Shown: piece by piece, positions 53,093 through 61,075 of the stretch
Numbering within the stretch: position 1 is the stretch's first letter
How the letters are laid out: each line of letters begins with the position of its first letter
Position numbers and translations under genes: made by a program
From: Bacteroidales bacterium
GTDB taxonomy: Bacteria > Bacteroidota > Bacteroidia > Bacteroidales > ML635J-15
Assembly (NCBI GenBank): GCA_017620015.1
Contig: JAFZRE010000006.1
Location: forward strand, 1-64,000
Reading direction: 5' to 3'
DNA: 64,000 nucleotides
The notes under the pieces: generated by a model
What the model was told of the DNA's origin: nothing
What the model saw: the letters and a program-made list of their open reading frames with translations, nothing else
Databases searched by the model: none

Positions 53093-53770
53093 CTACTTGA
53101 AGCTATAACCCACCCCGATATAATAAATATTTGCAGGATTCTTCACCTGCACCTCGTTGTCGGCACGAAGGTAAAAATCGAAAGAATTGTTCTTGTTTAG
53201 CCTATAATTCACACCGACAACTGTACGCATTTCGTCAATGAAACGCGCATCTTTCTTGTACATACGGATAAACATCTCGGTAGAAGCGTACAACTTGACC
53301 GGCTTGCTGAAGAAACTATACGAAATCTCAAACCTGTTGCGAACGTATGTCTTTGGATTGAACTTATGCTCGGCGCGTGATTCATCGTAAAATGATGCCT
53401 GATACTTTGACCGTAACGACAACTTGAAACTCCTTATCTTTTCGGAATAAGTAAGTCCGCCACTCACTCGATAGCGATTCTCCATGTAAGTTTCTCTATT
53501 TTTTAGGATATAGTCGAAGTCGGCAGAAACCTTGAAGCGGCTTTTCCAAAACGAGTATCCAAGACCAGCAGAAGCCTTGAAACGGTTAAATTCGGTAAAG
53601 TTGCCAGAAGTCTTCACTTCGCCCTCGACCGAATAGCCAAATCCCTTTACAATTTTGCCAGAATATCCAGCGCCAACAATAGCGCCAAAATCGGTTGTCT
53701 GCGCATACACCGAAATGTATGGCAGACAAACCATTATAACAAACAATAATATGATGCTACCTTTCTTCAA
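53093..53770 (-). CDS. DUF2490 outer-membrane protein
   Basis: 225 residues with signal peptide MKKGSIILLFVIMVCLPYISVYA, cleaved before QTTDFG. A barrel-like series of strands is typical of DUF2490 (FNRFKASAGLGYSFW, YMENRYRVSGGLTYS, FYLRADNEVQVKNP, YYIGVGYSF). The start codon is TTG: upstream in-frame sequence reaches a stop after ten codons, and no usable ATG keeps the signal peptide. It lies 102 bp after the DUF4956 gene across a hairpin repeat, so co-transcription is possible but weaker. Confidence 0.8.
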   Translation of the reverse strand: MKKGSIILLFVIMVCLPYISVYAQTTDFGAIVGAGYSGKIVKGFGYSVEGEVKTSGNFTEFNRFKASAGLGYSFWKSRFKVSADFDYILKNRETYMENRYRVSGGLTYSEKIRSFKLSLRSKYQASFYDESRAEHKFNPKTYVRNRFEISYSFFSKPVKLYASTEMFIRMYKKDARFIDEMRTVVGVNYRLNKNNSFDFYLRADNEVQVKNPANIYYIGVGYSFK

Positions 53771-53822: not shown

Positions 53823-53861
53823 ACCCTTCGACCCTTCGGCTACGCTCAGGGGGCGAAGGGT
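53823..53861 (-). repeat. Hairpin ACCCTTCG...CGAAGGGT after the DUF4956 gene
   Basis: Outer eight-base arms enclose a second stem CCCTTCGGC...CTCAGGG. It lies 11 bases past the DUF4956 stop. With no T-run it is a repeat rather than a clear terminator. Related to 6319-6337. Confidence 0.75.
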
Positions 53862-53872
53862 TAGGATGCAGT

Positions 53873-54736
53873 TTATTTCATGAAATCCTTATGCTTGACC
53901 ATAGTGTCGATGCTGTTGATTTGGTCGCTGATAGGTGTGTAGTAAATCTTTATGTAGGCAACATCGCGCAGGAAATCAATGTGACCGACTTCGATTCGCT
54001 GGATGTCGAGACCTGTGCGTTCCTTTAGATCGGCAATAAGTTCGTCCTCGCGGCCGTGCTTTACAAGTTCGATGCGCTCGTAGAGTACAATCTTGGTTGC
54101 CACGTGCTTAATTGCCTTGTTGCCGTCGAAGATGACGATTACAATGATAAACAGCACATTAACAGCCAACAAGTTGATGTATCCGTGGCTCATCGCCAGA
54201 CCATTGATTACCGAAATGCCAATAATCACAAACAGATAGGTCATCTCGCGGATTGGCAAAGGCTCGGTACGGTAGCGGATAAGTCCGAAGATGGCGAACA
54301 GACCCATTGCGAAGCCCATTGCAAGGTTAACGTTGTTGAGCAGGTTCATCAGCAGGAATACCGTCGTACCGAACAGCATAAAAGTGAAATAATAATCCTT
54401 GCGCTTGCTCTTTCGGTAGTACAGGAAATGCACTATCAGCCAGCAGATTATAATGTTCACAAGAAACAAAACGAACATCGAGAGAAGACTATCCTTGTTC
54501 CACAGCGGAATGCCAAGAATGTCGTTTGGCGATGCTATTGCAGTCATCTCGTCGGCAAACTCGCGGGCAATGTCTGGGTCGAAATCCATATTGTCGGCAA
54601 CGTCGGATGGAGTTTCAGCAACCTCAGCGACTGCCTCTTCATTATTATTTTCGTCTGACACAATGTCAGTATTTTGTGCAAAACATCCAAAACTCAGCAA
54701 CATAGTTGCTGCTAACAGAAAAAATAATTTCTTCAT
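53873..54736 (-). CDS. DUF4956 membrane protein with signal peptide
   Basis: 287 residues. Signal peptide MKKLFFLLAATMLLSFGCFA and an acidic exported stretch (to about residue 78) precede four membrane segments (about 85-108, 117-135, 140-155, 165-195). A cytoplasmic domain follows (YERIELVKHGREDELIADLKERTGLDIQ and RIEVGHIDFLRDVAYIKIYY). The core FAIFGLIRYRTEPLPIREMTYLFVIIGIS is the DUF4956 signature. The family co-occurs with VTC-type polyphosphate polymerases, and here its start overlaps the VTC gene stop by 4 bp. Function unknown; a channel or scaffold for the polymer is one possibility. Confidence 0.85.
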   Translation of the reverse strand: MKKLFFLLAATMLLSFGCFAQNTDIVSDENNNEEAVAEVAETPSDVADNMDFDPDIAREFADEMTAIASPNDILGIPLWNKDSLLSMFVLFLVNIIICWLIVHFLYYRKSKRKDYYFTFMLFGTTVFLLMNLLNNVNLAMGFAMGLFAIFGLIRYRTEPLPIREMTYLFVIIGISVINGLAMSHGYINLLAVNVLFIIVIVIFDGNKAIKHVATKIVLYERIELVKHGREDELIADLKERTGLDIQRIEVGHIDFLRDVAYIKIYYTPISDQINSIDTMVKHKDFMK

Positions 54737-55509
54737 ATCAATTTTATATTACATAGTTTTTCAATATAGCGCATCTTACGGCGGAAACGGTTCATCTTCG
54801 CATCAGGATTTGTCAAAAAAGTCCCAAGGCAATACTTGCTTATGCGTTTCTGATGGATGCGAAGGTCGAGCAGCACATCACGGAAATATGACGGGCACAG
54901 TCCGTCCTGCTTCAACTCGACAATGACAAGGTTTGGAATGCAAGCCGACCTGCCAGTTACCCTGTTTATTAGGTTCACATTCATATCGATGGTAAGACGC
55001 TCGGTTTTCTCGACATTCACAAGGGTTATGCGCTCGAATTTGTTTTCAAGAACAGGACTTAGCGTATTCACATCGTAGTGCAGAAATTCCGAAACGAAAC
55101 TTCTGTTTTCATCACGGCTAAGCATATCGTTGAAATCGTCCGGATTCATCGGGATGCGTTTTTTCTTAGTGCGCCCCTTGTTGTTCTTGTTCTTGATTTC
55201 GCAGAAGGCGATTCCGCTATCGACATAAATGCGGGCGCGTAGTTTCTGCCTGTTTAACTTGCGGTTGTGATGCGCAATGTACATTTTAAGATCGGCGGTA
55301 TCGTAATAGAGCGTGTTGTAGTCGGCAATCCTGCGCCCTTCGTTGAACTGCACGAAATACCGTCCGTGTATCCTGTCCAGGATTTCGACAAGCTGCTCGG
55401 TCGTCACAAGAAACTTTGTATCGACCCTGTTCATCAACTTAACCTTTTCCATTTCGGCAAGGGTTATGGTGTCGAACAACTGCAACTTATCTTCAATCTG
55501 CGACAACAT
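54733..55509 (-). CDS. VTC-domain polyphosphate polymerase-like protein
   Basis: 258 residues, a single VTC domain (the triphosphate-tunnel fold of yeast Vtc4, which builds inorganic polyphosphate from ATP). Tunnel residues visible: RVDTKF (Arg28, Lys32), YNTLYYDT, KLRARIY (Arg91, Arg93), FCEIKNK (Glu104, Lys106), FERIT (Arg160), RLTIDMN (Arg171, Asp175), VELKQDG (Glu198, Lys200) and RISKYC (Ser224, Lys225). All are present, so activity is likely. It lacks SPX or membrane parts, and DUF4956 next door may provide the membrane partner. The operon placement links it to exported beta-helix and T9SS proteins. Confidence 0.87.
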   Translation of the reverse strand: MLSQIEDKLQLFDTITLAEMEKVKLMNRVDTKFLVTTEQLVEILDRIHGRYFVQFNEGRRIADYNTLYYDTADLKMYIAHHNRKLNRQKLRARIYVDSGIAFCEIKNKNNKGRTKKKRIPMNPDDFNDMLSRDENRSFVSEFLHYDVNTLSPVLENKFERITLVNVEKTERLTIDMNVNLINRVTGRSACIPNLVIVELKQDGLCPSYFRDVLLDLRIHQKRISKYCLGTFLTNPDAKMNRFRRKMRYIEKLCNIKLI

Positions 55510-55922
55510 TACTGCTTATCAAAAATATACTCAAATTCCTTCACGGTTTCGAGCTTGCCGTTGGGGAAATAATTGTACTGCTTCTTCTTGCTTCCGTCGG
55601 GATAGTATTCGAACTTACGGATACGCACCGGCTTGTTGCGGCTGTCGTATTCGACCTCCTTTATGCACTTGCCCACGGTGTTGTACTCGAATGTCACACG
55701 CGATTTCTGTCCGTAGTTGGCGTATTCGATTTCCTCAATCTTGAAGCCGTTGGCATCGTACTTTGTCACGTGGTCGAGAAAACGTGTTTTTGTAGCTTGA
55801 TTTTCGTTCCATTCCTTTATGGTAAGGCCTTTGCGCTTCTCACGCTTTTCCTCGGTTGTCTGTGCGCAAACGACAAAAGCCGACATCATCAGCACAAGTA
55901 TTATTGCAAGTGTTCTTTTCAT
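55509..55922 (-). CDS. Small exported protein with YD/MORN-like repeats
   Basis: 137 residues. Signal peptide MKRTLAIILVLMMSAFVVCA precedes a basic linker (EEKREKRKGLTIKEW). Four short beta-hairpin repeats follow: TKYDANGFKIEEIEY, FEYNTVGKCIKEVEY, FEYYPDGSKKKQYNY and GKLETVKEFEY, resembling YD/RHS-type or toxin-antitoxin MORN-variant repeats. It overlaps the VTC start by one base. Function unknown. Confidence 0.7.
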   Translation of the reverse strand: MKRTLAIILVLMMSAFVVCAQTTEEKREKRKGLTIKEWNENQATKTRFLDHVTKYDANGFKIEEIEYANYGQKSRVTFEYNTVGKCIKEVEYDSRNKPVRIRKFEYYPDGSKKKQYNYFPNGKLETVKEFEYIFDKQ

Positions 55923-55925
55923 ATC

Positions 55926-56636
55926 CTATACGTTTAAAACAATTTTAATTGTATCGGCAATCTCATAGATTTCTCCGGCATTCTCAACCTTTACGCTACG
56001 AGTTACAGTATCGGGAATTTCGTTCAGATTCTCGGTAAAAGTGAAAATAGTATAGTCGCCAGGAGTAATTTTCTGGAAATAGAAATAGCCGTCCATACCC
56101 ACGCGTACATCGTCGAAATGATACAATTCCGTATCGCGCTTGATGAACACACGCTGGTCGTAAGCCCAGCCTTCGCCACGATAGTTGCTGTTGTGGTAAT
56201 AGCGAGCATAAACACGTCCCTTTATCATCGAAGTGCCATAAGCCTTGCCCTCGTGGATATAGATTGTCGGAACGGTTGCAGTTGCACCCTTCTTCAACTC
56301 AACCTCCTGCGAAACTGCGATTTTTTCACCGTCGGGCTTGGTAGAATAGGCAAAAATTGTGTATTTGCCAGGATTCATATACTTGAAACGGTAATGCCCC
56401 TTGTCGTCGGTTTCGACATCATCGCCATAGAAGGTATCGTCGCCATAAACAATGAAAACATCAACCTTTGCCGCCACGGTAGTGTCGGTTTCAAGGTTAT
56501 AGTTGTCGTCGGGGTGTAAAACGCGCATGACATCACCTTCGATGATGCCAGTGCCGCCCTCGCCTTCGTCCCTGTTGCACGAGTTAAGTGCAACAAGGAG
56601 AAGTACCGAGAGAAATATTGAAAAAATTCTATTCAT
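55926..56636 (-). CDS. Lipoprotein with two transthyretin/CNA-B-like modules
   Basis: 236 residues. Lipobox LNSC (Cys20) is followed by an acidic Gly-rich linker (NRDEGEGGTG). Two beta-sandwich modules of the carboxypeptidase-regulatory type carry GHYRFKYMNPGKYTIFAYS and DGYFYFQKITPGDYTIFTFT. Such modules are often stalks or adhesion scaffolds. It is 3 bp upstream of the YD-like gene and 17 bp downstream of the beta-helix gene. Confidence 0.75.
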   Translation of the reverse strand: MNRIFSIFLSVLLLVALNSCNRDEGEGGTGIIEGDVMRVLHPDDNYNLETDTTVAAKVDVFIVYGDDTFYGDDVETDDKGHYRFKYMNPGKYTIFAYSTKPDGEKIAVSQEVELKKGATATVPTIYIHEGKAYGTSMIKGRVYARYYHNSNYRGEGWAYDQRVFIKRDTELYHFDDVRVGMDGYFYFQKITPGDYTIFTFTENLNEIPDTVTRSVKVENAGEIYEIADTIKIVLNV

Positions 56637-56653
56637 GTTTTAATTATTTTCAA

Positions 56654-59539
56654 TTACGGTGCTGCGGTTATTGATGTCGCATTACCAGAAGTTGTTACAG
56701 TAGCACCAGTATAAAAACCATGCCAACTTTCACCGCCATTTATTGTGGCAGTTGTGTATATTGAATAAGTGCCTGACGAAAGTGAAGTGCTGGAGAATGC
56801 GAATCCGCCATTGCCACCAGGTGGCTTTGTTCCTGTGCCATAGTTAGTTTCCCAGCCATTGCCGGTAATCGACGACGGACCCTTGTAAACAAGAACGACA
56901 TTGTTGCTTGCGTCCTTGATAACAATAGTAGATGTCATTGAGTACGACGATGAAGAAGAACTTCCGCCACCCCATGGGTTACCACCACCTGATGAAGAAG
57001 TTAATAAATACTTCTGGTTGTTCTGCATTGTAGGAGTAGCATTGCCACCGCTACCGCCAGACCAAACACCCATAGAACCGCCGAATGCAACTATTGTTGC
57101 TCCGCTGATTGTAAGAGAGTGAGAAGCCTGTTCGCCAAGGTCACAGTCGAGAGCCTGTTCGTGTCCCGAACCGCCAGCAATAATAAGTCCGCCCGAGAAT
57201 ACAGTGCTTGTTCCATTGTTGTCGAGAGCATCGCTTCCAGTACCATAAACCCAAACCTTACCGCCAGAGATTTCCAGATAGTTGGTAGAGTTCAAGCAGT
57301 CGTCAGCAGCATTAACCTCAACGATACCGCCCTTAATGAGCATCTGATTCTTGCTCTCGATACCTTCGTGCTTTGCATATACAGCAACGCGACCGCTATT
57401 GATGATAACATTGCCCATACACTTTATGCCCTTTGGATTGCCAGAATAACCGCTACTGCTACTACCACCACCAGGGAATCCACCACCTGAACTAGCATTA
57501 ACAGCAGTACCCGATGCTGTAACTTCAATATTTATAAGGTTGTCGGCAGCATTTTCGCGACCAACAACAAGGTTGCCATTGATTTTCATACCACGACCGC
57601 CTTTGCCTGTAGATGTACAAATAATTGTTCCACCATAAATGAATGCATTACCATCAGCCTTGATGCAAACTGGCGAATAACCATCTGAAGTAGTGATTGT
57701 TGCGCCATTGCCAGCAGTTGTGAAGTTCATTGTACCGCCATTGATTGTCAGTACGCCATCGGAAGAAATTGCACGACCGCCAGTATTGGCACTTGTGCAA
57801 TTTACGGTAATGTTTCCGCCATTGATTGTTGTGGTATTGCCTTTTATTGCCAAGCAATATGCAGGGTCGCTATTTGTTACAACTGTTGATCCAGATGCTG
57901 TTATATTCATTGTACCGCCAGCGACAAGCATTGTCTGGTCGGCCTTGAAGCCCTTTGAAGCATTGCCCGAAAGTGTCATAGTGATATCACCATCTTCAAC
58001 ATCTATTGCACCGTCACACGAGAAACCCTTGCTAGTTACGCCGCTACAAGTAACAGTATAAGTTCCGCCGTTGATATTCAATGTCTGGTCGGCTTTTACT
58101 GCCTTTGAGTCGGAACCAGTTGCACGAAGTGTGTATGTACCACCATTAAGGTTTACAATATTGTCGCACGAAATGCCCTTGCTGTCTGTTCCACTGCAAG
58201 TAAGGTCGAGAGTTCCTCCATATATGTCAACAGAAACATCGCTCTTGATACAAGCGGCGCTGTATGTGTCGGCAACATTCGATGAATTTGTGTATGAACC
58301 GCCGTTACCAGCAACCGACAAAGTGACAGAACCGCCACTCATGCTATATAAATTGTCGGTAGAAATTGCTCTTGCACCATCGTTCGACGACGGACAGGTA
58401 ATTGTAAGTTCGCCATTGGTAACATACATATTGGTTGCCTTGATTCCCGTGCAGTACGACGGGTCACCAGCAGTAACAACGGCAGCGCCCGAAGCAGTAA
58501 TAGTTGTATTACCGCCAGCAATGTAAACTATGGTCGATTTTATTGCCTTTGTCTGTGCGCCCGAAGCAGTAAGGTTGTGTGTTCCGCCCTGTATTGTCAG
58601 AGTATCGCACTTCAAACCTTTGCAATCGGCATTTGCAACCGTCATAGTGAGCGAACCGCCCATCAACTTGATTGTAGCTTGGTCGGCATGAAGTTCCTGA
58701 TTGCCATATTCAGCCTCTATACCATCGCTACCGAAACCGCTTACACTGACATTACCACCGTACATTCTGAAATTGTTTGCGTGTATGCCGTCCTTAACAG
58801 CTGCGGTAACATTTATTGTACCAGTGTAAACGTTAATATGTGCATCGCTATTGATACCATGCTGCTTATTACCAGCAACATTGAGAGTACCATTACCATA
58901 AACCTCGATAGAACCTTCGCAAAGCAAAGCGGCCTTGAATTCACTTGTCGAACCGTCGGCAAGCGAGTTGGTTGTACCGTCCTCAAGGATAAGCTTTACG
59001 CGCTTGTCCGAAGGAACATTTATAGCCGCGCCTGTAGGATTGGTTATGTTTGCGCCATTGAGACGAAGGTCGAACTTGTTGTCGGTATTAATGGTAAGCG
59101 AACCGTCGGCAGTTGTACCTGCCACAACAATAGTGCGGTCTTCGGTTCCCGATGCAGCACTTACTGAAACATCTTCGCCATTGCAAGAAACCGTTATTCC
59201 TCTGCTCGACCACGGATTTACCACACCGACAGCACCACCATTGGTATATGTAATGTAAATCCAGTCGCCATCATCTTGCGGCTGCGGCTCGTCACCGTCT
59301 AGCGACTGCATATAAAGCACAATGCTGTCGATTCCCATTACAGGAAAACTGAACGGAGTTTCTCCATTAATATTTGTATATGCGCTTGAAGTTCCCGTAG
59401 GAAGGAAACTTACGCTGTCAACATTCTCTATTGTCTTTGTATATATGACATTCCCATTGCTATAGTATAGGAGCTTGTTCTGTGCCGAAATAGACAGCAC
59501 AGCCAAGACAAATGCCAAAACTGCTACTATCTTTTTCAT
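56654..59539 (-). CDS. Cthe_2159-type carbohydrate-binding beta-helix protein
   Basis: 961 residues. Signal peptide MKKIVAVLAFVLAVLSISA and a short N-terminal domain (KTIENVDSVSFLP) are followed by a very regular parallel beta-helix of Gly/Asn/Thr-rich rungs from about 115 to 850. Recurrent words are KGISCDNIVNLNGGTYTLRA, KAIKSTIVYIAGGNTTITA and ALDCDLG. This matches the Cthe_2159/DUF4353 family; the founding clostridial protein binds acidic plant polysaccharide (pectin) and calcium. Near the C-terminus are Gly/Ser-rich loops (GGGNPWGGGSSSSSS). No T9SS tail is present on this chain, but the gene immediately upstream encodes a small protein that has one. Confidence 0.85.
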   Translation of the reverse strand: MKKIVAVLAFVLAVLSISAQNKLLYYSNGNVIYTKTIENVDSVSFLPTGTSSAYTNINGETPFSFPVMGIDSIVLYMQSLDGDEPQPQDDGDWIYITYTNGGAVGVVNPWSSRGITVSCNGEDVSVSAASGTEDRTIVVAGTTADGSLTINTDNKFDLRLNGANITNPTGAAINVPSDKRVKLILEDGTTNSLADGSTSEFKAALLCEGSIEVYGNGTLNVAGNKQHGINSDAHINVYTGTINVTAAVKDGIHANNFRMYGGNVSVSGFGSDGIEAEYGNQELHADQATIKLMGGSLTMTVANADCKGLKCDTLTIQGGTHNLTASGAQTKAIKSTIVYIAGGNTTITASGAAVVTAGDPSYCTGIKATNMYVTNGELTITCPSSNDGARAISTDNLYSMSGGSVTLSVAGNGGSYTNSSNVADTYSAACIKSDVSVDIYGGTLDLTCSGTDSKGISCDNIVNLNGGTYTLRATGSDSKAVKADQTLNINGGTYTVTCSGVTSKGFSCDGAIDVEDGDITMTLSGNASKGFKADQTMLVAGGTMNITASGSTVVTNSDPAYCLAIKGNTTTINGGNITVNCTSANTGGRAISSDGVLTINGGTMNFTTAGNGATITTSDGYSPVCIKADGNAFIYGGTIICTSTGKGGRGMKINGNLVVGRENAADNLINIEVTASGTAVNASSGGGFPGGGSSSSGYSGNPKGIKCMGNVIINSGRVAVYAKHEGIESKNQMLIKGGIVEVNAADDCLNSTNYLEISGGKVWVYGTGSDALDNNGTSTVFSGGLIIAGGSGHEQALDCDLGEQASHSLTISGATIVAFGGSMGVWSGGSGGNATPTMQNNQKYLLTSSSGGGNPWGGGSSSSSSYSMTSTIVIKDASNNVVLVYKGPSSITGNGWETNYGTGTKPPGGNGGFAFSSTSLSSGTYSIYTTATINGGESWHGFYTGATVTTSGNATSITAAP

Positions 59540-60027
59540 AACTTACTGAATTTATAGGTTTTACCATCAATTTTTACGATATACAGACCTTCGCTTAGAT
59601 CGCTTACATCAACAGCACCGTCAAACGAAAGATTTTCTTCCTTTACAAGCTGACCAGTTGCCGAGAAAATCTGCATAGTAAGCTCCGAACCAACATTGAA
59701 GTTGAAATACAGCATATCGGAAACCGGATTCGGATAAAGTCCATCCTCGCCCGCAAACTCTTCAACCTCGGTAAGGTCAGGTTCATTGTAGTTCAAAGTC
59801 ATCTTCTTGACATCGGTCATAGCAAACGAAGTAGTTGTGCCATCGCCAAGCTTGAAAACGACATTCTCGCCTTCGAAATAAAATTTCTTCACATCCAGCA
59901 ACTCTTCGGGTGCTGAATTTACATTCACCCTGAAATGGACTGTAATGTCCGTCGTCTGCGCAAAGGTTTTTATACTCGCCAGCATAGCAAGCATAAAGAC
60001 CATTGCAATTAAAACTTTTCTATTCAT
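59536..60027 (-). CDS. Small exported protein consisting mainly of a T9SS type-A sorting domain
   Basis: 163 residues. Signal peptide MNRKVLIAMVFMLAMLASIKTFA and a compact N-terminal domain (FYFEGENVVFKLGDGTTT) are followed by a complete type-A tail: LYPNPVSDMLYFNF, MQIFSATGQLVKEENL, LSEGLYIVKIDGKTYKFSKL. Its stop overlaps the beta-helix start by 4 bp, and it is the first gene of the operon. Either it is a cargo in its own right, or its domain acts as a carrier or anchor for the tail-less beta-helix protein; the latter is inference. Confidence 0.82.
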   Translation of the reverse strand: MNRKVLIAMVFMLAMLASIKTFAQTTDITVHFRVNVNSAPEELLDVKKFYFEGENVVFKLGDGTTTSFAMTDVKKMTLNYNEPDLTEVEEFAGEDGLYPNPVSDMLYFNFNVGSELTMQIFSATGQLVKEENLSFDGAVDVSDLSEGLYIVKIDGKTYKFSKL

Positions 60028-60102
60028 AACATTAAATTTAATTACAAATTTACATATTTTTCTAAAAACATCATTCGAAAATTGACATTTATTTTAACGT
60101 AG

Positions 60103-60110: not shown

Positions 60111-60171
60111 TGTGTCATTCCGAAACGATTATCGTCAATAAGGTTTTTAAATTTGGCAAAAACTCTTTTTT

Positions 60172-60199
60172 TTGCAAAACCACATTTTTGTTATATTTG
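60172..60199 (+). promoter_or_regulatory. Promoter of the second AraC gene
   Basis: TTG at 60172-60174 and TATATTTG at 60192-60199, 17 bases apart; the ATG is at 60227. It shows that the upstream in-frame reading from 60110 is not part of the protein. Confidence 0.65.
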
Positions 60200-60226: not shown

Positions 60227-61075
60227 ATGAAAGGCAACGACAACTTTATAACGGAAATGACCGATGAAATCAACCGCAAGGGTGTGGTTGTAATCGACAA
60301 TGTAAGGAGAATGCCTGTTTACGGGAAACCATACGCATCTCCGCACTACACCATAGGAATCAATCATCAGGGAAGCGTAAGTACCGAATATGAAGGTCAA
60401 ATAGAAAATTTTGGCGCCCACAACCTCGCCATAGTTTATCCGCGCCACGCATTGCTTACGCACAGTTCGTCCGACGACTACCTCGCCACGCTTGTTGTCG
60501 TTTCCGAACGCCTTTTTGAAAAACTAGCCATCCTAAACATCAACAACAGCCGATTCCATTACGAGCAGCATCCGCATTTCACGCTCACGCCAAGTCAGTA
60601 CACCGATGTGATGACTCTTGTCGATTCGCTACGCATTGTCTCCCGCCTAAGTTCATCATTGCCAGAAGATTGTATTTTGCCGCAATTGCACATATTGTTA
60701 CTTGTAATCGACTCTTTCCGTATAGAAAACGACGGCATAAACGCTTCTACAAGCGGACACATAAGTTCCAAACTCTACAATGCCATCATCAAGCACTATA
60801 AGGAACACCGCGATGTGGAATTTTATGCCGACCTGTTCTGCCTGTCCCCCAAATATTTTAGCACATCCATAAAACGCGAAACAGGACATAGCGCAAACTA
60901 CTGGATACAGCAGCATGTTATACATATATCGAAAACTTTGCTCCGTACCGAACACAAAATGTCGTTGCAGGAAATATCAGAGAACATAGGTTTCCCCGAC
61001 CTTGCAACCTTCAGCCGCTATTTCAAACGTGCAACAGGAATTTCGCCAAGCGAATACAGAAAAGGGAATATGTAA
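60227..61075 (+). CDS. AraC-family transcriptional regulator
   Basis: 282 residues, soluble. The N-terminal cupin-like sensor domain (about 1-150; YTIGINHQGSVSTEYEGQ, HNLAIVYPRHALLTHS) is followed by a C-terminal double helix-turn-helix (about 185-280): VEFYADLFCLSPKYFSTSIKRETGHSANYWI and MSLQEISENIGFPDLATFSRYFKRATGISPSEY. Divergent from the beta-helix/VTC operon with about 200 bp between starts, so it is the obvious candidate regulator of that operon. Confidence 0.87.
   Translation: MKGNDNFITEMTDEINRKGVVVIDNVRRMPVYGKPYASPHYTIGINHQGSVSTEYEGQIENFGAHNLAIVYPRHALLTHSSSDDYLATLVVVSERLFEKLAILNINNSRFHYEQHPHFTLTPSQYTDVMTLVDSLRIVSRLSSSLPEDCILPQLHILLLVIDSFRIENDGINASTSGHISSKLYNAIIKHYKEHRDVEFYADLFCLSPKYFSTSIKRETGHSANYWIQQHVIHISKTLLRTEHKMSLQEISENIGFPDLATFSRYFKRATGISPSEYRKGNM

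Follow-up and report, generated by a model that had tools for sequence, protein, structure and literature searches.

A seven-gene VTC-DUF4956 operon in Bacteroidales: a putative machine for making a phosphate polymer and exporting it to the cell surface

In Firmicutes and Bifidobacterium, the VTC-DUF4956 gene pair occurs with CotH (and DUF4832) among the accessory genes of Pel loci (PMC7112168, PMC12345266), and the CotH-VTC-DUF4956 arrangement has been stated not to be found outside such loci (PMC12345266). In the one published mutant set, from S. intermedius, deletions of DUF4956 and of CotH altered both aggregation and Pel, while no defect in either was reported for the VTC deletion (PMC12345266). 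The NELoc-2 cluster of C. perfringens also holds VTC together with CotH, along with cell-wall proteins (PMC2879425, PMC11677781). In yeast, the VTC complex (Vtc4/Vtc3/Vtc1; 3g3q, 7ytj, 8i6v) is a polyphosphate polymerase-translocase. Finally, Cthe_2159 of Clostridium thermocellum (PF14262) binds cellulose and polygalacturonate (PMC6712302 and references there). In the literature that we searched, no assay of any bacterial VTC was found, and both the route of a polyanion (polyphosphate or similar) to bacterial surfaces and the purpose of prokaryotic VTC are seemingly open, for which the operon described here provides a testable list of trans-envelope parts.

We analysed a stretch of 64,000 nucleotides (the window) from a Bacteroidales bacterium (contig JAFZRE010000006.1). 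The features of the operon and its flanks are as follows.

60227..61075, plus strand: divergent AraC-family regulator, about 282 aa, length from relatives (HTH_18, E 1.1e-20)
60045..60052, minus strand: candidate -7 promoter element of Bacteroidota type, TAAATTTG, located 18 bp before the T9SS gene, from the sequence and not significant alone
59536..60027, minus strand: small secreted protein, 163 aa, with signal peptide and T9SS type A C-terminal sorting domain (Por_Secre_tail, E 1.5e-12)
56654..59539, minus strand: Cthe_2159-type right-handed beta-helix, 961 aa, with signal peptide, an optional surface module (PF14262, E 1.2e-67, 5 stretches)
55926..56636, minus strand: transthyretin/carboxypeptidase-regulatory-like (TTR) lipoprotein, 236 aa (fn3_3 and CarboxypepD_reg signals)
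55509..55922, minus strand: orf137, small periplasmic YD/RHS-like beta-sheet protein, 137 aa, with signal peptide (weak family matches in relatives; AF2 model)
54733..55509, minus strand: VTC-domain enzyme, 258 aa, without signal peptide, Vtc4-like tunnel fold (PF09359, E 9e-33)
53873..54736, minus strand: DUF4956 inner-membrane protein, 287 aa, with signal peptide, acidic extracytoplasmic segment, about 5 TM and cytosolic C-terminal domain, as predicted (PF16316, E 2.6e-53)
53833..53850, minus strand: interspersed palindromic repeat (CCTGAGCGTAGCCGAAGG, within a longer inverted repeat), between DUF4956 and DUF2490
53093..53770, minus strand: DUF2490 putative outer-membrane pore-forming protein, 225 aa, seventh operon gene (PF10677, E 7.4e-22)

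The initial annotation had described an operon of six minus-strand reading frames at 53873-60027, overlapping or separated by 17 bp or less, and all six were found there. The T9SS gene overlaps the Cthe_2159 gene by 4 bp, which is followed by a 17 bp gap to the TTR lipoprotein gene and a 3 bp gap to orf137; orf137 and the VTC gene overlap by 1 bp, and the VTC and DUF4956 genes by 4 bp. The families assigned at that stage (VTC, DUF4956, Cthe_2159, T9SS tail and TTR-type lipoprotein) are backed by Pfam/NCBIfam matches. What had been overlooked was a seventh gene, DUF2490 (53770-53093), which starts 102 bp downstream of DUF4956. The corresponding gap is 3-5 bp in most relatives of the window genus and 209 bp in one. 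From this short gap in most relatives and the inverted repeat lying in the window gap, DUF2490 was very probably part of the operon in its ancestral form. The repeat core CCTGAGCGTAGNCGAAGG has 17 exact copies in the window genome, including that at 53833-53850, while reversed-pattern controls gave 0. The genome contains a single VTC gene and a single Cthe_2159 gene, both at the operon.

A sigma-70 promoter scan upstream of the operon gave scores no better than those of shuffled sequences; that a single promoter drives the operon is plausible from the sequence. A match to TTTG-N17-TATATTTG is located at 60171-60199, ahead of the AraC gene. The regulator is divergent and matches HTH_18 as proposed, but its real start lies near 60227 rather than 60110, since the proteins of its relatives are about 282 aa long; the gene is present in only part of the window genus. 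At another locus (L165:12290-14250), a Pfam-confirmed LytTR-type histidine kinase/response regulator pair lies beside the VTC-DUF4956 operon, and such pairs or genes of similar size were also seen near the operons in L130, L131, L037, L043, L067 and L069, where Pfam confirmation is confined to L165. LytTR-type pairs may regulate VTC-DUF4956 operons.

The gene content of the operon suggests a putative machine that makes a phosphate polymer and exports it to the cell surface. As in the Pel-locus cassette of Firmicutes and Bifidobacterium, VTC adjoins DUF4956 and has exported partners, and Bacteroidales relatives carry CotH at the same place. However, the window operon adds DUF2490, orf137, the TTR lipoprotein, Cthe_2159 and T9SS tails. 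No Pel-type protein was found among the seven operon products with Pfam/NCBIfam, and Bacteroidota loci such as that of L202 have CotH-VTC-DUF4956 with no Pel gene among the genes identified there; Pel loci are probably not the only setting in which the three genes group. The initial annotation had VTC, DUF4956 and Cthe_2159-like proteins co-occurring in some Firmicutes; in the literature found, this holds for VTC and DUF4956 with CotH (PMC7112168, PMC12345266), but not for Cthe_2159. Unlike the window operon, NELoc-2 is Gram-positive, carries glycosyltransferase and deacetylase genes and has no outer-membrane parts. The 961-aa protein belongs to the same beta-helix family as Cthe_2159, but it is longer, with 5 matching stretches, and is encoded in a VTC-DUF4956 operon. 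As far as we found, the Bacteroidales core with DUF2490 and orf137, the TTR/Cthe_2159 partners and the swap of surface modules within a genus are new.

The VTC enzyme resembles Vtc4 in three respects, namely its profile, its fold and its active-site residues. First, it matches positions 1-231 of the 235 in the Pfam VTC model with 114 bits, against a cut-off of 23. Second, when its AF2 model (pLDDT 95) was searched with Foldseek, the best PDB matches were yeast Vtc4 structures 3g3r/3g3q (E ~1e-13 to 1e-12, TM 0.60-0.66), and TTM triphosphatases ranked below them. Third, in a profile alignment to 3g3q/5iiq, Vtc4 residues K200, R264, R266, K281, K294, R361, E426 and K458 correspond to K32, R91, R93, K106, K116, R160, E198 and K225 of the window protein, and all eight are invariant across 28 homologues. 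We take these eight residues to be the catalytic residues of yeast Vtc4, and their numbering fits the alignment. The Vtc4-type residues noted in the initial annotation were thus recovered by profile alignment and by their invariance. The enzyme presumably resides in the cytosol, because it carries no signal peptide. It shares with the yeast complex the tunnel-domain fold, the catalytic residues and the pairing with a membrane protein. In contrast to that complex, Pfam finds nothing but the VTC domain in the 258-aa window protein, with neither an SPX domain nor a Vtc1-type membrane domain; its DUF4956 partner is a separate chain, which is not of Vtc1 type, and the envelope has two membranes.

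In the window genus, the signal peptide of DUF4956 is followed by an acidic stretch some 67 residues long (17 D/E, 2 K/R) and then by about five hydrophobic segments. Positive loops lie behind the first, third and fifth of these, and hydropathy and loop charges predict an N-out, C-in topology. The S. intermedius homologue is described as having four TM segments, an MgtC-like membrane part and an intracellular ACT domain (PMC12345266). When DUF4956 was compared with MgtC by hhalign, the hydrophobic core was aligned (P 0.024, probability 2%), which did not confirm a kinship of the two. For BT3498-BT3499 of B. thetaiotaomicron (DUF4956 and DUF2490), the literature contained only an entry in an iron-limitation table (PMC10434189).

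The ACT domain of the S. intermedius protein and the fold shared with TTM triphosphatases both favour an alternative, in which VTC is a TTM hydrolase or sensor instead of a polymerase and the pair has a regulatory role in phosphate or envelope metabolism, for instance through an ACT-like domain of DUF4956. The same alternative gains from two other loci, where the VTC-DUF4956 pair lies beside HAD phosphatase and phosphonate-transport genes (Deinococcus) or beside a phytase-like esterase (Aminobacter). However, the closest profile and fold matches are Vtc4 polymerases, not triphosphatases, and a purely cytosolic regulator would not readily account for exported and outer-membrane partners. Based on these observations, we consider a hydrolase or sensor unlikely, and the reading as a polymer-exporting machine is preferred below.

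The neighbourhood of VTC was surveyed in a set of 99 genomes spread over the order (the order sample), of which 51 contain VTC and 56 DUF4956. At 53 of 55 loci DUF4956 lies within 400 bp of VTC on the same strand, and at the remaining two it lies at 711 and 3830 bp. In a second set, consisting of the best 80 Bacteroidales loci from a profile scan of named genomes, counts were made at 79 loci within 4 kb of DUF4956; these include many assembled genomes from herbivore guts as well as Bacteroides, Prevotella, Muribaculaceae and Paludibacteraceae. VTC was found at 77, DUF2490 at 67, orf137 at 50, Cthe_2159 at 28 and the TTR lipoprotein at 25 of the 79 best loci, which makes DUF2490 and orf137 the most frequent companions of the pair among close relatives. 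Random neighbours of VTC-DUF4956 in related genomes had been named in the initial annotation as the outcome that would undo the idea of a system; the neighbourhood proved non-random, and the idea survived. Of the 42 DUF2490 genes in the order sample, 19 are located at a VTC locus (random-placement P ~2e-37), and of the about 16 genomes that contain both Cthe_2159 and VTC, 5 have the two side by side (P ~8e-10), where both P values overstate the significance because genomes are treated as independent. At the same time, DUF2490, orf137 or every recognised surface partner is missing from many VTC-DUF4956 loci. What is observed directly is the clustering of the seven genes and the conserved VTC-DUF4956 pairing in Bacteroidales. 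The six genes tested are under purifying selection, with dN/dS between congeners of 0.02-0.11 (0.02-0.03 for orf137) except for Cthe_2159, which is the fastest at 0.14-0.21.

Cultured human-gut Bacteroides also carry the operon, namely B. salyersiae (L165) and B. cellulosilyticus (L156). An apparent VTC-DUF4956 fusion of 542 aa in the latter (L156:8008-9636) was rejected, as its reading frame crosses a run of N.

PPK1 was found neither in the window genome nor in a second genome of the genus (G081). Replacement of PPK1 by VTC was nevertheless rejected for the order, as PPK1 is present in 31 of 51 genomes with VTC and 32 of 48 without it (P 0.68). Since the two are independent across the 99 genomes, VTC is not simply a substitute for PPK1.

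We next consider the envelope partners. The AF2 model of orf137 (pLDDT 90.9) is a single repetitive beta sheet. Support for its earlier description as a YD-repeat protein is weak: no family was matched by the window copy, but relatives match DUF2963, MORN_2 and RHS_repeat weakly. Its fold search returned repetitive beta-sheet matches only (SdgB/TarM domains, Rhs shells and the DUF3836 protein 4r03; TM 0.48-0.59), so that no function can be assigned. DUF2490 scores 78 bits against a Pfam cut-off of 29.8, and the family is described only as a putative porin (PMC4827864). The TTR lipoprotein, whose gene is present at 15 of 37 A-type loci of the order sample, has a Cys followed by an acidic EGxGG-type stretch, a motif found in 27 of 41.

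DUF2490 was also observed at loci without VTC, close to CotH (G080:C25, G024:C14, G065:C58 and G042:C88) or close to Cthe_2159 (G042:C23 and G001:C83). These six adjacencies suggest that DUF2490 works with CotH/Cthe_2159 exported proteins independently of VTC. On the Pseudoalteromonas plasmid NZ_CP142031.1 (L181:5652-7648), a Porin_O_P phosphate-selective porin directly follows DUF4956; the VTC frame there is a 104-aa C-terminal piece only, and may be broken.

Within the window genus, the operon keeps its envelope core but varies in its surface module. This is seen in two arrangements and in the occurrence of CotH. In the window-type arrangement, the order is T9SS protein, Cthe_2159, TTR, orf137, VTC, DUF4956 and DUF2490. 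In the alternative one (L202 and L206), a T9SS-tailed arylsulfotransferase and a propeller protein, with CotH also in L202 only, occupy the Cthe_2159 position and are followed by the same TTR, orf137, VTC, DUF4956 and DUF2490 (Pfam). The core common to relatives is orf137 (YD-like), VTC, DUF4956 and DUF2490. The initial annotation had counted Cthe_2159, the T9SS protein and AraC as parts of the system; of these Cthe_2159 is recurrent but optional, and the T9SS protein and AraC occur in a subset of the genus only. The Cthe_2159 protein scores 228 bits against the PF14262 cut-off of 25.8, and all 32 operon-linked candidates tested in relatives match this family. It has no T9SS sorting domain itself. 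The small T9SS protein is conserved among those members of the genus that carry Cthe_2159, and the window genome has T9SS machinery (SprA_N, E 4.7e-178) along with the type A tail protein at 59536-60027. On the VTC+DUF4956 tree Cthe_2159 is scattered, with about 21 changes compared with 28 for shuffled labels; the 'none' labels include truncated contigs, which makes the number of gains uncertain.

At least 13 of the 51 VTC-bearing genomes of the order sample have CotH at the VTC locus or close to it, a conservative count from a Pfam search and a domain-only profile. A whole-protein CotH profile was contaminated by T9SS tails, and the window T9SS protein was rejected as a CotH candidate. The frequency of CotH here, and in Firmicutes Pel loci (PMC7112168), leads to a further alternative: VTC-DUF4956 would supply energised phosphate outside, where there is no ATP, for secreted CotH-type kinases that modify exported proteins, with Cthe_2159 as another possible acceptor or binder. 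It would fit that the CotH set and Cthe_2159 share one upstream position in the genus, and that the CotH copies at these loci carry T9SS tails and hence act outside the cell. However, there is no CotH at the window operon, where the copies of the genome sit on other contigs, and G081 keeps the operon with no CotH in its genome. We therefore regard phosphoryl supply as improbable.

The binding properties of Cthe_2159 (PMC6712302 and references there), and the many close relatives that are herbivore-gut genomes, would also suit a plant-fibre adhesion operon, with Cthe_2159 as a rumen binder of pectin or cellulose and VTC-DUF4956 co-expressed by chance, as the source of ordinary polyphosphate inside the cell. 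Against this, VTC-DUF4956-DUF2490 is found again alongside different surface partners or none that is recognised, a human-gut Bacteroides (L165) has it together with Cthe_2159, and VTC and PPK1 occur independently in the order. Adhesion to plant fibre is accordingly, in our judgement, quite improbable.

We tentatively favour a cytosolic VTC polymerase coupled to DUF4956, exporting polyphosphate or a similar polyanion toward an outer-membrane barrel and a surface binder, to which we give slightly less than an even chance; the identity of the polymer, its export and its surface binding are what we infer. In such a machine, the cytosolic VTC domain would polymerise phosphate from nucleoside triphosphate, and DUF4956 would hold VTC at the inner membrane and pass the chain outward, like the membrane domains of yeast Vtc1/3/4. 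The polymer would then be carried across the periplasm and outer membrane by orf137 and the DUF2490 barrel. Exported proteins would bind or decorate it at the surface, namely the Cthe_2159 beta-helix and TTR lipoprotein here and T9SS-tailed CotH, sulfotransferase and propeller proteins in sister lineages. This proposal is supported by the partners mapping to successive envelope layers, as predicted from VTC without a signal peptide, membrane DUF4956, orf137 with a signal peptide, OM-type DUF2490 and exported Cthe_2159, TTR and T9SS proteins. It is also supported by the likeness to Vtc4, the adjacency at 53 of 55 loci, the co-location of DUF2490 and Cthe_2159, the purifying selection and the window genome without PPK1, and further by DUF2490 beside CotH/Cthe_2159 away from VTC and by the DUF4956-Porin_O_P pairing of Pseudoalteromonas. 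On the other hand, it is weakened by the VTC deletion in S. intermedius, for which no defect in aggregation or Pel was reported (PMC12345266), by DUF4956 not being a Vtc1-type domain, by the putative porin status of DUF2490, by the many loci without partners and by the triphosphatases within the TTM fold. A more specific form, a dedicated PPK1-independent polyphosphate export apparatus running from VTC-DUF4956 through orf137 and the DUF2490 barrel to interchangeable surface modules (Cthe_2159 or the T9SS CotH set), appears rather doubtful.

Several other gene groupings were observed during the survey. A second VTC-DUF4956 subtype (L074-L080 and L053) has weaker DUF4956 scores and is preceded by a protein of about 355 aa that looks, by eye, like an HlyD-type adaptor, and another subtype (L081-L092) often has CotH-like proteins of about 1000 aa. 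In the rumen Bacteroidales loci L104, L099 and L110, bacterial alpha-2-macroglobulin genes (about 1850 aa) lie downstream of DUF2490, as confirmed by Pfam in L099.
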